Assembly (NCBI GenBank): GCA_037974665.1
Contig: CM075773.1
Span: 34,639,080 to 34,703,079 of the forward strand
DNA length: 64,000 nucleotides
Source of the DNA: Ehretia macrophylla
Lineage: Eukaryota; Streptophyta; Magnoliopsida; Boraginales; Ehretiaceae
Direction of reading: 5' to 3'
The translations under genes were made by a program, and so were the position numbers. Positions 3,781 through 49,367 of the stretch are shown here, piece after piece. The notes under the pieces were generated by a model. The model was not told the origin of the DNA. It made no database searches and saw only the letters and a program-made list of their open reading frames with translations. The number at the start of each line of letters is the position of its first letter. Position 1 is the stretch's first letter.

Positions 3781-3891
3781 GAAGAGCTCCGTTGACCCCG
3801 AAATTTTTCGTTTTTGCTTTTTTTGCATTTTACTCGTTTTTTATTTTATGTACAGACCGGGTCGTACTAGTAAAATGCAAAAAAAAAAAAA

Positions 3892-18398: not shown

Positions 18399-19732
18399 AA
18401 TACCCATTTTTGGGAGATTTTACACAAATATTGTAAATCATGCAGCCTGTTGGCTGTTTTTCCGATGGAAAATAGAGATTGGCAATTTCATAGTGCCAAA
18501 AGCTAGCACAAGATGAAGTTCTTTTCTGATGGCTGATACTTCTCTTGCAGCAATCAAAAACCTTACTGCACACAATTTGTTGTATAACTTTCTGTATTTA
18601 TAGCCGGTTCGACGAGTGGCTGCTGCAACAATGCTGCTTCTGGGGTTAAGATGTTGATCTTGCCGTGCAGCATCACTTCCTCATCTGATACCTGCTTTTC
18701 TGCTGCAGTTACAGAGCTTGATTTGTCATCTGATGGAATTGTATTAATCTCTCCACTATAAAGTATTCACTTTTGGACTCTTGTATTGTATTAGACAGCT
18801 TATTGTCAAACATTTTGGGCTACAAGATGCTGAGAATAATGTTATATCCATGCATGTGTATGTTGGGACAAGGAGTAGAGCACTGAAAAAACCCCACCTT
18901 TTTGCAAAATGAAAATACTATGGAACGGGTAAGGATTTTTTCATACTATCATAACGTTAGTAGAGGGATTTAACAGTTATAAATCTATTTATTTATTTTA
19001 TAATTGTGTTAACAATTTATAATTGTTAGATTTTACTCATTATAACGTAACGTTATGAGTTGATTTATTTTCCTATAAAACATCTTAGTAGGGTTGAATG
19101 GTGTACTTTTTAAAAGAAAATAGAATTAAGGGTCTAAAAATATCATTTTAGAATATAAGAGATCATATTATTATTTTCGTGATTGTTGAAAGATTTTTAG
19201 AGAAATTATACTTTTATAAGTGTTATGATATATACTTATCTCATATAAAAACATCATAAAGTTGAAGATCATTATATAAGATTTGGAGATAGACTTTTTA
19301 GCACCAATTAATTTTATGATAGAATTTTATAATTTTTGATATGGTTAAAGCTTAGCTCCTATATTTTATCTTGTCCATCAAGCATTCATTCACATAGGAT
19401 TTCTCTCTCTTTTGGTCTCGTAGACATAGGATTTATCTTTCTTTTGGTCACGTAGCTCATTATATCTACATCTTCAATCTTGGTTTGCAAATGCAAGGAG
19501 GTCATGCTTGTTGTTCAAGACTACCATGTAAGATACTGAGTTAGTTATTTTTAACACCAATTGATTTTAAATTGGAATTCATAATTCTTAACGTCGATTA
19601 TCAGTGACTGTTTGGAATTGTTTTTGAAAATAAAAAATAAAAAAACTTATTTGACATGAATTGTTTTCGGTAATTATTTTAAAAAATTGTTCTAATAAAT
19701 ATATTATCTAGAACAAGAAAACAAAAACATAT
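18399..19732. other. IBA57 3' region and intergenic AT-rich DNA
   Basis: The probable 3' UTR runs several hundred bases past the stop; AATAAT-type signals near 18833-18840 could serve polyadenylation. The rest is AT-rich with no recognised gene. Confidence 0.5.
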
Positions 19733-33667: not shown

Positions 33668-35531
33668 CTAAAAACTTGGACTAGAAGCAAATGCAAGAAA
33701 TTCCGGGTCATTCTGAAATATGGACATGACTTGCTCTTCCAAAGTAACCAATGCTTCTATTCCATCCAGATTGTCATTATCCATCAACAAGAAAAAATTG
33801 TTATATGGTGCAGCTGCAAAACTCACCCTTATAGGTCTTCCCCATCCAAAATCTATACGGTACGTTGGGAATTTGCAGAAGCTACTGCAAATATACCCAT
33901 TAAAATTCTCATCTTGCATTGTTGTTAACCGTTGAGCGTTTTCAAGAATCGTCGAGACAAGGCCATTTGCATCTATCCCTTTGTATTTCTCGTAATGTAG
34001 TACTTTTTCCCTCCTTATTTCGCTAACTAGTCTAGCGAAATTCACCTCTTTTTCATCACCCGTTGATACGGAAAAGTTTGAAGCAAGATTTCCTGCATAA
34101 TTATTTTGTGTGGCTGCAGGTAGCCGCATCAGTTGGCGCAAGTTCACAATGAAGGCTAACGCAGATGGTTTGAATGATCCAGTGTATACCATGGCTGCGG
34201 ACATGGCACATTTGTAAAGAAGTGCACTCACAACCTCAACTCGGGTAGGGTTCTGCACTCCTACTTGAGCAGCAGCCTTAGCTTTTAGTTCACTTAATTT
34301 CTTGGAATCAAATACATACCTTCTAGTAATACAATGATGCCCTTGTTTCAGATCTGCTGATCCAATTGATAAATCATGTTTAGGGGGTAAGATAGATGCT
34401 CCAATAAAATGTGGAAACGACTTTTCTTCAACATCACTTGATTGACCACGTGCCAGAGCAGCCCAATCATTGATGAAGTTGCATAATGTGTGTCCATCAC
34501 CAAGCTTATGAGCCATGCACACGCTAAGACCTTTTCCCCCACAATCAAAATGGCTAAGTTGAGCAACAACAAGACTAGGTTGATCATCACTGACACTTCT
34601 CCAAGGTAAGCCACTTGGATATACGATATCTTGGGCATTAACGTTATCAGCATTTAGAATTTCAGTCATTGTACAATGTTTGATCCTCGCTTCAATGAAT
34701 GTAGCTCCCGTGTCGCTGCAATTAATGGAGATGTCGTCTTTTAGTTTTCCAGCAAATGGATAGTAAGAGGCCAGAGCTTTTGATAGTGATTCCTCAAGAA
34801 TAGAAGAGGTTTGATCTGTTGGAAATCAAGCTAAAAAATCAAATACAATGCTGGAGCTGAGAAACTTTAAAGATACTAGATTTGAAGAAAATTCAAAGAT
34901 GACAGAAAAGTCCAGATTGTACAACTGGAAGATCTAAGAAGATCAAATTTAGGCAGTAAAGGTTGAATCAAACAACTTAAGCCAGTTCATGTTTAGATTA
35001 CGAAACTAAAAATTCTAAGGATACATTTTAACTATAAATATGAGTTGTATGTAACAATTATAATCAGAGCAAAGCTCCACAAGCAGGAGTAAAAGCTCCA
35101 AATCACAAGAGAGCCATAGAGCTCCAAATCACAAGAGAGCCAAAGAGCTCTAAAACAAGAGTCATGATATATCTATAGAGAATCATGATATCCACAAAAA
35201 AAAAAAAAAAAAGTAGAGATATTCTCCCACAACGTAGAGATATATTCTAACCAAAATCACATCATCAAAAAATAAAAATATACTCTAGTTTCCCATCAAG
35301 AAATGCAAAATTCACAATTCTCCCCATTGTCCAAATTTTAACATGATAACTAGTGTAATTACCTGGGCGTTTATGGTGTGGGTTGGGATAGAAACATGCC
35401 ATGGGCATATACGTGTTTTTCATGAGTTGATCCATTAAAGAGAGCTTGTAATTTCTGAGTGAAGGTGGTGTTAAAACCGAGGGTTTTACCAACTTTTTGG
35501 AAATCAATTGAAGAAACATCGATGAAGCCAT
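33668..35531 (-). CDS. BAHD acyltransferase (vinorine synthase-like clade), paralogue A
   Basis: BAHD enzymes transfer acyl groups from acyl-CoA to alcohols or amines of secondary metabolites in the cytosol; the substrate cannot be read from sequence. Two exons, 35363-35531 and 33668-34815, joined in phase 1, give 438 residues, the normal family size. HXXXD is H159-KLG-D163; DFGWG is at 378-382 (RIDFGWGRPIRV). The start MASSMFLQLISKKLVKPSV is chosen over an ATG six codons upstream because paralogue B starts MASSRLQLISKKLVKPSV. The 547-base intron (34816-35362) consists almost wholly of a solo LTR at 34817-35343; its donor lies in former coding sequence, and its acceptor AG is formed at the LTR/host junction. 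Without splicing the frame would be broken, so the gene is either rescued by splicing or disabled. All motifs are intact and no stop lies in either exon. Confidence 0.88.
34817..35343 (+). mobile_element. Solo LTR forming the intron of BAHD paralogue A
   Basis: Begins TGTTGGAAATCAAGC and ends CCAAATTTTAACA. It is the same LTR as those at 42037-42529 and 43329-43787, in the opposite orientation to that element. Flanks TGATC (34812-34816) and TGATA (35344-35348) look like a 5-bp TSD with one difference. No internal region remains, so it is a solo LTR of a small Copia-like family. Relative to the gene it lies antisense. Confidence 0.85.
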
Positions 35532-35789: not shown

Positions 35790-36869
35790 TAGGGATAGCA
35801 ACAGTAACCATTTCACCTGAAATCAACGAGTATCTGCCCGATAAAAAAATGATAACAAAAATCGATACGAAATTTATTAAATTTTAAATTTTATAAATAA
35901 TAACTGACGAGTAAACTGATAAGTTTTGATTTTTAATTTTAAAAAAAATCGAAACCCGAAACTCAATTATTAATTAATATATATATATAATAGATATTAT
36001 AACATATTTGTACCTAAACTTCCCTTTCTTTCATACATACATTTATAAACATTCACATAACATTTTCTCTTTCTTAGTCATTCTCCCAACCTTTTCTTTC
36101 TCTCTCTTACTTTACCCTCATAATTTTTCCATTCATTTCCTTATCTTTCTCTTTCTCTAACATTTCAACTCTCTTTCACTCTCTCTTTTTTATTTTTCAC
36201 CTACCCCAATGACCCCATCTCAATTCTAAAATCTAATCCTTTCTCTCTCCACCCCTCTTCTTCTTTCTTTCTAGTTCTTTCACCCAAAAAAAAAAAAGGG
36301 ACAACTTAAAAAAGCTCCATTTTTTCAATTTCACAGTGCAGATTGGCAACGGAGTCGTGAAATCCTAGCTAAGCAAAATATATATACATTATAGACCCAT
36401 AATTTACACTAGATCAGAAAGCTTTGCCAATGTATCTTTTGTGTAGTCTATTCCATTTTATAGATCTAAATTTATTTATTTCATTTTGCTTATATATTTA
36501 TTTTTTAATAGGTAAATTAGTAATTGGTGTTCATTGAAGATCTTTTCAAATTAGTTGATTTTTTACTTGTATTTTGCTATTGGATAAGTCAATATTGAAG
36601 AATTATATTGTATTTATATTTTATTTAAATTTTCTTAATTCTTTTATTTAAATTTTATATTATATGTTGTTGATTATTTCTATGTTTTTAAGTTTATTTT
36701 GTTGTTCCAAATGTTTTTTTATATTTTTTTTAACGTTAATCAGTTTTGGTTCGGATAACCGCGGTTTTTTTAATTTCAATCGGTTTCGGTTTCGGTTTTT
36801 GATTTTGTGAAACAGTTTTGGTTTCGGATATTCCAAAAATCGCAGTTATCCAGACCGTTGCCATCCCTA
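35790..36869. mobile_element. Non-autonomous hAT-like element with 8-bp TSD
   Basis: Left end TAGGGATAGCAAC and right end GTTGCCATCCCTA form hAT-type terminal inverted repeats. Flanks CACCCAGT (35782-35789) and CACCCAGC (36870-36877) are an 8-bp TSD with one mismatch. The 1.08-kb interior is AT-rich with CT-rich patches and has no transposase frame. The element begins about 260 bases upstream of the BAHD-A start codon, so it lies in the promoter region. Confidence 0.8.
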
Positions 36870-42036: not shown

Positions 42037-43787
42037 TGTTAAAATTTGGATATAGGGGAAAAATTGTGAATTTTGCATTGATGAGAAAGTGAAGTACATT
42101 TTTATTTTTTGATGATGTGATTTTGGTTAGATTATATCTCCATACTGTGGAAGGATATCTCTACCTTTTTGGTAGATATTATGGTTCTCTATGGATACAT
42201 TATGATTCCTGCTTTGGAGCTCTTTGGCTCTCTTGTGATGTGGAACTCTATGGTTCTTTTTTGTTTTGGAGCTTTTGCTTAGGGTTCAATGATAATAAAC
42301 ACCTCATATTTATAATAAAATTTGTCTCTAGAAATTCTAATTTCATAATCTGAACATGAGCTGGCTTGAATTGTTTGATTTAACCTTTGCTACTTGACTT
42401 TGATCTTCTTAGATCTTCCAGATGTGCAATCTGGACTTTTCAGTCATATTTGAATTTTCTTCAAATCTAGAATCTTTGAAGTTTCTTAACTCTAACATTT
42501 TATTTGATTTTTTAGCTTGATTTTCAATACTCCCCCTCAAGCTAAAAAATCTTTTACTCCATGCTTTGCTTCCTTTATCTTGAACTTGTTCTTGTGAATA
42601 TGAAATCTCTCCCTTTTTTTAAGAAAATGTGATTTTGTGAAATGTTGCAAAAAAACTGAAAATAACTTTTTCTTTTTTAAACAAAAAACACTGAAAGGTG
42701 TTTTAGAAGAAAACTTTCTTTTGGAACATTTTTTTTTTTTTTTGACTGGTTTTGAAAAAGAACCAACCAAAGTTGAGTGTTATGATAAAAAAAAAATAAG
42801 TATGGCTTACGCCTTTTTATTTGTCTGCTTTTGCCTTTGCTTTGCACAACCGTCCAAGCTATTTGCTTTCTTTTTGTTTTATCACCAATTTGTTGGATGT
42901 TACTCTCATCTCTTCTTTCCAACTTTAATTGTGAGGTAGGCCTTCACTTTATTTTTTACCTCAAGTAAAATGTTTTCTTTTTGTCTTGATGAAGACTTTA
43001 TTCAAGACTTCATGAACTTTCTTCAGACCATATACAATTCTACAATGTCTCCTCTGCTCTTCATTAGTAAAGAATTTCTGAAGTTTCTCCAATAGAGAAT
43101 TTTTTAAATACTTTTTGCTGATGCCTTATCCAGGATGTTGCTGTCACCTCTTGCTTGGTGAGAGCTTTTCATTTTCTCACTTGAATTTTTGTTGCTTGAT
43201 TTTTTTATTTTTTATTTTGGTACTCCTTTCTTCATTCCTTTCAGCTTGCTAATTTCTTATGCAGAAGCTTGTTGTGGAAGCTTGTTGATTGACACCCAGT
43301 TGAATGACTCAATTAGACTCTGATACCATGTTAAAATTTGGATATAGGGAAAAAATTGTGAATTTTGCATTGATGAGAAAGTGGAGTACATTTTTATTTT
43401 TTGATGATGTAATTTTGGTTAGAGTATATCTCCATCCTGTGGGAGGATATCTCTACTTTTTTTGTGGATATCATGGTTCTCTATAGATGATTCCTACTTT
43501 GGAGCTCTTTGACTCTCTTTTGTTTGGGAGCTTTTGCTCAGGGTACAATGATAACAAACATCTCATATTTATAATAAATTTGTCTTTAGAATTTCTAATT
43601 TCATAATCTGAACACGAGCTAGCTTGAGTTGTTTGATTCAACCTTTGCTACTTGACTTTGATCTTCTTAGATTTTTCAGTTGTGCAATCTGGACTTTTCA
43701 GTCATATTTGAATTTTCTTCAAATCTAGAATCTTTGAAGTTTTGGAACTCCAACATTTTATTTGATTTTTTGGCTTGATTTCCAACC
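42037..43787 (-). mobile_element. Small non-autonomous LTR retrotransposon (Copia-like, TRIM/LARD type)
   Basis: Two direct LTRs, 42037-42529 and 43329-43787. On the minus strand the upstream LTR ends in TTTTAACA and is followed directly by TGGTATCAGAGTC (43316-43328), a primer-binding site for initiator tRNA-Met. A purine tract TTGAGGGGGAG lies just before the other LTR. Both flanks carry the 5-mer ATTAC (42032-42036 and 43788-43792). The internal region is only about 800 bases and carries no gag or pol coding I can see. The LTRs differ at several tens of positions by eye, so the insertion is not recent. Confidence 0.88.
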
Positions 43788-48041: not shown

Positions 48042-49367
48042 TCACAATGAGTCCGAACGAGTTGAAGCAAATGCAAGAATCTCTGGGTCACTACGAAATG
48101 TGGACATGACTGGCTCTTCCAAAGATACCAATGCTTCTACTCCATCACCATTCTTATTATCCATCAAAACAGATAAACTCTCATATGGACTAGCAGCTAA
48201 ACTCACCCTTGTAGGCCTTCCAAATCCAAAATCAATATTGTATGTTGGGAATCTACACATGCTGGTAAAACTATGCACCTCGATCTCATCCTTGCCTTTC
48301 GCCATTAACTGTTCAATCGTCGCAAGAGATGCTGAATAAAGATCATTGGTTTTGATCCCTTTGTATTTCTCGAAGAATTGTAGTTTTGCTTTCCTTATTT
48401 CGCTAACCAATCTTGAAAAATCCAACTCTTTCTCGTCCGTTGTTACTACAGGAAATATCGTATTGATATTTCCTACGTAGTTTTGTGTAACGGGCGGCCC
48501 TATTAATGAACGCAAGTTCAAGACTGAAGCTAAAGCAGATGGTTTGAATGATCCCGAGTATGCCTTTGATGCAGCCACGGCAGATCTGTAAAGAAGAGCG
48601 CTCACAACCTCAACACGAGTTGGTTTCACAACTCCTGATTCTGCAGCAGCCTTGGCCCTGAGTTGATCTAACTTTTCAGGATAAAACACATACCTCTTGG
48701 TGATACTATTCTCCCCAGCCTTGAAATCCGCGGCTTCGATTGATAAATCGCCATTAGGGGGCAAAATAGAAGCTCCAATGAACTGTGGAGATGGCTTTTC
48801 ACTTGATTGGCTCGACACAGCAGCCCAATCTTTGACAAAGTTGCATAATGTGTTTGCATCACCTGTGTTGTGTTTCATCAACACACTCACTGCTTTCCCC
48901 CCACAATCAAAATGGTTAAGTTGAGCCATCACAAGACTCTGTTGCTGATCATCTACATGTCCATATCTCCAACCTAAGCTATCAGGGAATACAACTTCAA
49001 ACGCATTGACATTGTCTGCTTTCAGAAACTCAGACATGGGGCATCTGATTCGCGCTTCCATGAATGTAGCTCCCATGTCATTGCAATCAACGGAGATATT
49101 ATCTCTTAGTCTTCCAGCATGTGGGTAGTAATAAGATAGTGTTTTTGATAGTGATTCCTCAAGAGCAGACGATATTTGAGTACTAATGTTGTTGTTATGA
49201 TCTTTGTGTGTATTTTGCTGGTTGGGATAGAAAAGCGCTATAGGCATATATCTCCTATTCAGTAACTGATCGAGTAAAGAAAGCTTATAGTTTCTGAGTG
49301 AAGGTGGTGTTGAAACGGAGGGTTTCACAAGCTTCTTGGAGATCAATTGTAATCTTGAAGAAGCCAT
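48042..49367 (-). CDS. BAHD acyltransferase (vinorine synthase-like clade), paralogue B
   Basis: Intronless frame of 441 residues, the usual BAHD length, starting MASSRLQLISKKLVKPSV. HXXXD is H166-NTG-D170 (LMKHNTGDANTL), the catalytic motif. The second signature reads DFGFG at 379-383 (YNIDFGFGRPTRV) instead of the canonical DFGWG. Other family blocks are SYYYPHAGRLRDN, FDCGGKAVSVLM, PTRVEVVSALLYR and VEALVSLEEPVM. It is similar to paralogue A over its whole length in the same orientation, so the two arose by local duplication; about 12.5 kb of transposon-rich DNA now separates them. Cytosolic enzyme; donor and acceptor unknown. At residues 55-74 it aligns gap-free with the coding sequence of paralogue A that flanks the LTR intron, showing the intron is new there. 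Confidence 0.93.
   Translation of the reverse strand: MASSRLQLISKKLVKPSVSTPPSLRNYKLSLLDQLLNRRYMPIALFYPNQQNTHKDHNNNISTQISSALEESLSKTLSYYYPHAGRLRDNISVDCNDMGATFMEARIRCPMSEFLKADNVNAFEVVFPDSLGWRYGHVDDQQQSLVMAQLNHFDCGGKAVSVLMKHNTGDANTLCNFVKDWAAVSSQSSEKPSPQFIGASILPPNGDLSIEAADFKAGENSITKRYVFYPEKLDQLRAKAAAESGVVKPTRVEVVSALLYRSAVAASKAYSGSFKPSALASVLNLRSLIGPPVTQNYVGNINTIFPVVTTDEKELDFSRLVSEIRKAKLQFFEKYKGIKTNDLYSASLATIEQLMAKGKDEIEVHSFTSMCRFPTYNIDFGFGRPTRVSLAASPYESLSVLMDNKNGDGVEALVSLEEPVMSTFRSDPEILAFASTRSDSL

Follow-up and report, generated by a model that had tools for sequence, protein, structure and literature searches.

The stretch of DNA analysed here (64,000 nucleotides, hereafter the window) lies on contig C10 of a genome of 1.58 Gb in 20 contigs, which is that of a plant by its genes. 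Its minus strand carries two genes of the BAHD acyltransferase family, designated gene A and paralogue B (Table 1). A solo LTR interrupts a coding exon of gene A, which is otherwise open. When the parts on either side of it are joined, they encode 438 residues in frame; without splicing, stop codons are met inside the LTR, soon after exon 1. In an initial annotation the LTR was proposed to serve as the only intron of the gene, and the coordinates given there for the exons, the intron and the LTR, as well as the strand and the 438-residue frame, proved right. Paralogue B is intronless, as was also stated there, and its HKDHNNNISTQISSALEESL matches the joined flanks of gene A without gaps. A GA/CT-rich stretch is found upstream of gene A at 36050-36310.

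Table 1. Features of gene A, its LTR and their relatives (window positions unless a contig is named)
Feature	Position	Strand	Remarks
Exon 1, BAHD gene A	35363-35531	-	56 codons and one base; open from ATG; found by tblastn of paralogue B against the window
Predicted donor, CAG/GTAATT (cut after CAG)	35357-35365	-	8/9 against the consensus MAG/GTAAGT
Predicted intron, gene A	34816-35362	-	547 bases, 527 of them LTR
Former coding sequence, now within the predicted intron	35344-35362	-	19 bases, ending in duplication copy TATCA
Solo LTR, TG...CA	34817-35343	- (own sense = + strand, antisense to gene)	527 bp; defined by genomic copies and ends
Second duplication copy, GATCA	34812-34816	-	its G completes acceptor CAACAG; predicted intron end = 34816
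Exon 2, BAHD gene A	33668-34815	-	HKLGDG and DFGWG; open frame with stop codon; Pfam PF02458
Two-LTR relative of the LTR	42037-43787	-	1,751 bp; ATTAC on both sides; PBS-like and PPT-like sequences; LTR matches
Paralogue B	48042-49367	-	intronless; 441 aa; 59% identical to spliced A; Pfam PF02458
C19 relative (L083 and L084)	C19:24386500-24387000 and C19:24393200-24393500		BAHD; insert of about 6.7 kb

The LTR and Its Genomic Copies

The LTR in gene A is flanked by TATCA and GATCA (in the orientation of the gene), which agree at 4/5 bases and thus represent a 5-bp duplication with one mismatch. The initial annotation had reported a 5-bp duplication; it is present, but the match is incomplete, as the copies given there (TGATC and TGATA) themselves show. 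Between the two copies there is the LTR alone, without an internal part. A genome search using the intron of gene A gave at least 44 matches (40 of 230 candidates were scored). At least 16 of them, besides gene A, start at query positions 14-22 and end at 541-547, the LTR borders being at 20 and 546. The TG...CA borders are common to these other copies, which bears out the identification of a solo LTR.

Copies at 28 loci and the two-LTR element of the window were examined; one locus was gene A itself, and L002 and L077 were the same place. Seventeen end-to-end copies were scored, consisting of gene A, 13 other solo copies and three LTRs of two-LTR elements. All 13 other solo copies have 5/5 duplications, at 10 independent sites when the flanks common to L003, L004 and L006, and likewise to L061 and L062, are taken into account. 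L060, which begins at LTR base 3 and has no duplication by eye, was left out of the scoring. The same LTR sequence is also present at either end of two-LTR elements, such as that in the window. Among the matches listed, the closest copy is on C18 (88% identical, without the first 21 bases) and the closest end-to-end copy is 84% identical. A chance repeat instead of an LTR is ruled out by the shared TG...CA ends and by the family copies with 5-bp duplications.

The frames across the empty sites have 34-99 codons at the 13 other solo copies, as against 454 for gene A. A long frame across the site was found in none of these 13, which may still sit in introns or UTRs. L061 and L062 (on C1, with shared flanks) have a GATCA duplication, and hence the same CAACAG end, without a long frame across the site.

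Orientation of the LTR

Beside the LTRs of the two-LTR element, the plus strand of the window reads CTCTGATACCA and CTCCCCC, which we take to be the reverse complements of a primer site (TGGTATCAGAG) and a purine tract (GGGGGAG). From these PBS-like and PPT-like ends, the sense strand of the family is opposite to gene A and the LTR is therefore antisense there; a sense-oriented LTR in gene A is ruled out by this element. By the same two motifs, the element is presumably copia-like. The internal part of the two-LTR element has partial matches only elsewhere in the genome, where an autonomous partner was not found, and the element therefore looks non-autonomous and TRIM-like. The antisense orientation of the LTR was absent from the initial annotation.

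The own sense strand of the LTR carries TATAAATA, AAATAA and AATAAA. Because of the antisense placing, its AATAAA-type signals are not read in gene A: in the gene sense, the LTR contains none of AATAAA, ATTAAA, AATTAA, AAATAA and AATGAA. It contains one AATATA in that sense, a weak poly(A)-like motif that counts against a clean splicing reading. LTRs often carry promoters. Expression might thus start downstream of the LTR and give a shorter protein from exon 2 alone, which has a frame of 333 aa counted from its first ATG, but TATAAATA of the LTR points away from the gene.

Intron Position among the Relatives

The exon-1 protein of gene A has 76 matches in the genome, including itself, and the exon-2 protein has 111. 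When exon-1 matches were paired with all 111 exon-2 matches on the same strand within a limit of 10 kb, 74 of the 76 had a partner, gene A among them. The gap between the gene parts is 64 bp or less in 69, 187-305 bp in three, 550 bp in gene A and 6,720 bp in a relative on contig C19. The three with gaps of 187-305 bp have no excess of more than 12 bp after allowing for unmatched query residues. Thus, 72/73 other paired relatives have no extra DNA at the intron position, and the other one, on C19, has a different insert at another codon. Uninformative matches are outside this count: 15 exon-2 matches starting near the N-terminus without an exon-1 partner and two exon-1 matches without an exon-2 partner. 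An older intron at the same position, named in the initial annotation among the findings that would speak against intron gain, is ruled out in the paralogues by these 72 relatives. Two marks of an intron gain by transposon insertion are found here: the paralogues have no intron at this position, and the body of the predicted intron is a transposon (527/547 bases). The proposal that the LTR was inserted into a coding exon, at a new intron position and with a splice solution that keeps the frame, is thus supported.

The C19 relative was read over 802 bases at its two broken ends. The coding sequence is interrupted after FETMY, some 14 codons upstream of the end of exon 1 of gene A. The insert has TG...CA ends (starting with TGTAAGAATTTTTT and ending with TTGTCCAACA) and GTATG on both sides. 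It therefore appears to be an LTR element as well, with a 5-bp duplication free of mismatches. Its start differs from that of the LTR of gene A, and both end in CCAACA followed by a G. The gene is broken again downstream: a distance of 576 bp separates residue 203 of one piece from residue 201 of the next, and further on two pieces overlap in different frames. It provides a contrast to gene A, of the same family and with a similar insertion, but decayed. Since C19 ends the uniqueness of gene A as a target and yet supplies this decayed contrast, our confidence in a working intron is unchanged.

The C19 relative also bears on another reading, in which gene A is a young pseudogene: the LTR would have broken the gene, the splice signals would be luck and the frame would not yet have decayed. 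The stops soon after exon 1 on reading through the LTR are in line with it, as are the relatives in the family that have in-frame stops and the one broken by another element, and we rate it slightly higher because of the C19 finding.

Splice Signals

As was proposed initially, the donor of gene A is former coding sequence, in the 19 bases of ex-exon upstream of the LTR. The donor consensus used for scoring is MAG/GTAAGT; that of gene A is without the G at +5, and 5/6 of its intronic bases fit. In the window, 20 donor-like 9-mers on both strands score 8/9 or better. The acceptor reads TTGATTTCCAACAG, with a branch-point-like TTGAT having its A at -24, and T makes up 44.8% of the intron vs 28-29% of the exons. 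That the acceptor consists of the terminal CA of the LTR and a host G is borne out, with the reservation that this G is the base differing between the duplication copies. An upstream AG (TTTTTTAG) lies 15 nt before the acceptor and 8 nt beyond the branch-point-like A; its use would lead to TGA, an early stop. There are 27 in-frame GT-AG pairs, and the strong donor is used by five (among the 25 listed). Of these five, the pair ending at the LTR border is the only one to leave exon 2 complete, and two weaker donors also join the same acceptor in frame.

How often would such a solution be met by chance? LTR insertion was simulated at 19,206 positions in 16 paralogue genes, with the donor sought within 60 nt and in frame. 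A G at the acceptor was found at 3,867 positions. The combination of this G with an in-frame donor scoring 8/9 or better was found at 13 (0.07%), and with one scoring 7/9 or better at 140 (0.73%). A comparable splice solution at only 13/19,206 positions argues against the pseudogene reading.

Splicing could also be partial or regulated, in an exitron-like manner, so that the LTR tunes the output, a reading that overlaps the best explanation given below. The missing G at +5 and the competing AG 15 nt upstream point in this direction; nothing in the DNA requires it, however, and the fit of the other intronic donor bases is against it. We regard it as rather unlikely.

Timing of the Splice Sites

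The initial annotation held that the insertion created a working intron at once, and this part is not supported. A solo LTR is left behind when the two LTRs of a longer insertion later recombine. The first insertion at this site was therefore longer, and the first intron would have been as well. In addition, the donor of gene A lies in CCA GGT AAT, and GGT is found in 0/13 paralogues having a codon there (aligned by eye). Two of the 15 paralogues are without this codon, and GAT or GAC is found in 8/13. Therefore, the donor GT arose on the lineage of gene A, either earlier or later than the insertion. The duplication copies of gene A differ at one base only, the acceptor G, and where paralogues have a codon at this site, it is GAT (L019) or CAT (L022). 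Since the target copies disagree at this G, one of them has mutated since the insertion, and the AG may not be original.

Judging from these bases, later single-base changes may have been needed for the insertion to be spliced. A stepwise gain can be put forward tentatively, although we are inclined to doubt it: the antisense LTR would provide a T-rich 3′ splice region with CA at its end, and single-base changes would then rescue the disrupted gene. In this somewhat doubtful sequence of events, GAT would have become GGT at the donor, and the acceptor G may be another such change. If it were true, the ends of antisense LTRs would be half-finished acceptors that lack a single base to make an intron.

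Constraint and Age

A purpose-written branch-class codon model was applied to 16 genes (gene A and 15 paralogues, with L022 lacking the N-terminus) over 438 codons. Omega was 0.44 on the branch of gene A, 0.48 in the background and 0.30-0.61 on ten paralogue branches tested alike, and omega = 1 on the branch of gene A was rejected (2 x delta lnL 17.4). This branch is long (0.47 substitutions per codon); the greater part of it is therefore probably older than the insertion, and its omega is hardly informative on later time. The nodes near gene A in the 16-gene tree have low support. Exon 1 of gene A alone gave an omega of 0.41 in a weak test (2 x delta lnL 2.0). This exon is open and 64-79% identical to the 20 best other matches, and together with its omega and the direction of TATAAATA this makes expression of exon 2 alone highly improbable.

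In a tree of 18 LTR copies, the terminal branch of gene A is 0.060, and those of the two LTRs of the window element, which date its insertion, are 0.041 and 0.046. Ten of the 18 terminal branches fall at 0.04-0.09, five shorter ones belong to the two flank-sharing groups, and three are longer. The LTR of gene A looks 4-6% diverged. It has 19 private changes (vs 13/17 other copies), 11 of which are C>T or G>A, and in view of these changes methylation may inflate the age, which is an upper bound.

The neutral chance of an open frame, simulated under assumed indel and transition rates, was 0.26 at a divergence of 0.01, 0.07 at 0.02, 0.02 at 0.03, 0.002 at 0.045 and 0.001 at 0.06. Together with the age, this simulation favours, but does not prove, that the gene kept working after the insertion. 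A young pseudogene would be helped by an age below the upper bound of 0.06, as the open frame has a chance of 0.26 at 0.01. Against it, the LTR family looks old by the branches given above, both catalytic motifs are preserved, and the open paralogues have a similar omega. On balance, we consider it unlikely that gene A is a pseudogene.

Proposed Origin of the Intron

The LTR probably became the only intron of gene A, and, as a whole, a working spliced intron is the best explanation and a likely one, judging from the splice signals, the frame and the constraint. An outline of the process would be as follows: a copia-like LTR element was inserted antisense into the stretch coding for a variable loop of an intronless BAHD gene, and recombination between its LTRs would have left the solo LTR whose anatomy is observed. 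The transcript would then be spliced, fully or partly, from the GT 19 bases upstream of the LTR to the AG at the LTR end, which consists of the last base of the LTR and the first base of the target copy. Splicing would remove the whole LTR with five codons. Recognition might be aided by the T-rich antisense LTR (45% T in the intron) and by TTGAT at 24 nt before the acceptor, while the antisense placing would hide the AATAAA-type signals of the LTR. With few residues lost from a loop of variable length, the protein should keep its predicted activity.

The sequence that splicing would remove from the former coding region amounts to 15 nt beyond the 5-nt duplication. The initial estimate of about six residues lost in a variable loop is thus right as to the loop, which varies in the family (it reads FYPNHHHHNQISC in L025 and is longer in L019), but the loss is five codons. 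At the predicted junction, PDQTSS is aligned with PAQTSQ of vinorine synthase (2bgh), with a gap of two residues. The split codon G/AT would give Asp, which is also found at the same place in several paralogues.

Relation to Known Systems

Spliced retroelement insertions have been described in plants before. The mechanism is of a known kind, and the present case is unusually readable. Cases involving waxy, Ds and TRIM are reportedly precedents and are not relied on here. According to the accessible part of the report on ONSEN in Arabidopsis, new insertions of this full-length LTR element in an exon are spliced out as a new intron (PMC12112155). As is predicted for gene A, an LTR element in an exon is removed as an intron, with splice sites suspected in the LTR. 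The ONSEN insertions are, however, full-length, experimentally new and supported by cDNA, whereas the predicted intron of gene A is a solo LTR, old by divergence. Two different gene ids are named for the exonic case in that part of the text (PMC12112155).

A review of intron gain lists, in its available text, 35 transposon-derived events in Oryza, Drosophila, Oikopleura and Zea (PMC3443670). They resemble gene A in that latent splice sites near the ends are usable and the coding sequence is kept or nearly so; the word LTR is absent from that text. The AGGT-duplication model, as given there (PMC3443670), can be rejected for gene A, as its donor is former coding sequence and its acceptor is LTR plus a target base, which have different origins. 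SMART elements in grass genes, in the portion of the account available (PMC3281118), are similar in being small LTR elements that, with their solo LTRs, are found in introns, and 11 genes with possibly altered structure are mentioned. They differ in being mostly insertions into introns that leave the structure unchanged, in their 85-bp LTRs and in their occurrence in grasses (PMC3281118). Introners are also transposon-derived introns, but they form introns in many genes, and none is reported in land plants in the accessible text (PMC9860276). The LTR of gene A would be an intron in one gene, with 0/13 other solo copies in a long frame. An introner-like family has no support here, as the frames of those copies are of 34-99 codons only. 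A recent intron gain in potato is ascribed, in the part of the article available, to tandem duplication (PMC4974935). A solo LTR forming the only intron of a coding gene was not found in the available parts of the intron-gain and solo-LTR literature searched, outside which most subscription journals fell.

Few recent intron gains show their source so clearly. In gene A one can read the element with its ends, the target duplication, the bases of both splice sites and, in dozens of paralogues, the uninterrupted site. The available text of the intron-gain review leaves open why such elements are spliced (PMC3443670). Gene A bears on whether an insertion is enough by itself or point changes are needed later to complete the intron.

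Paralogue B and Neighboring BAHD Genes

HxxxD and DFGWG are motifs of the BAHD family, and both are carried by the protein predicted from spliced gene A. They are altered in paralogue B (HNTGDA and DFGFG), while among 15 other genes compared HK..D is found in 15/15 and DFGWG in 14/15; by these substitutions, the activity of paralogue B may have changed. The region of C10 at 34.5-35.3 Mb, which includes many of L010-L028, is a large array of vinorine synthase-related BAHD genes with both open and broken members.
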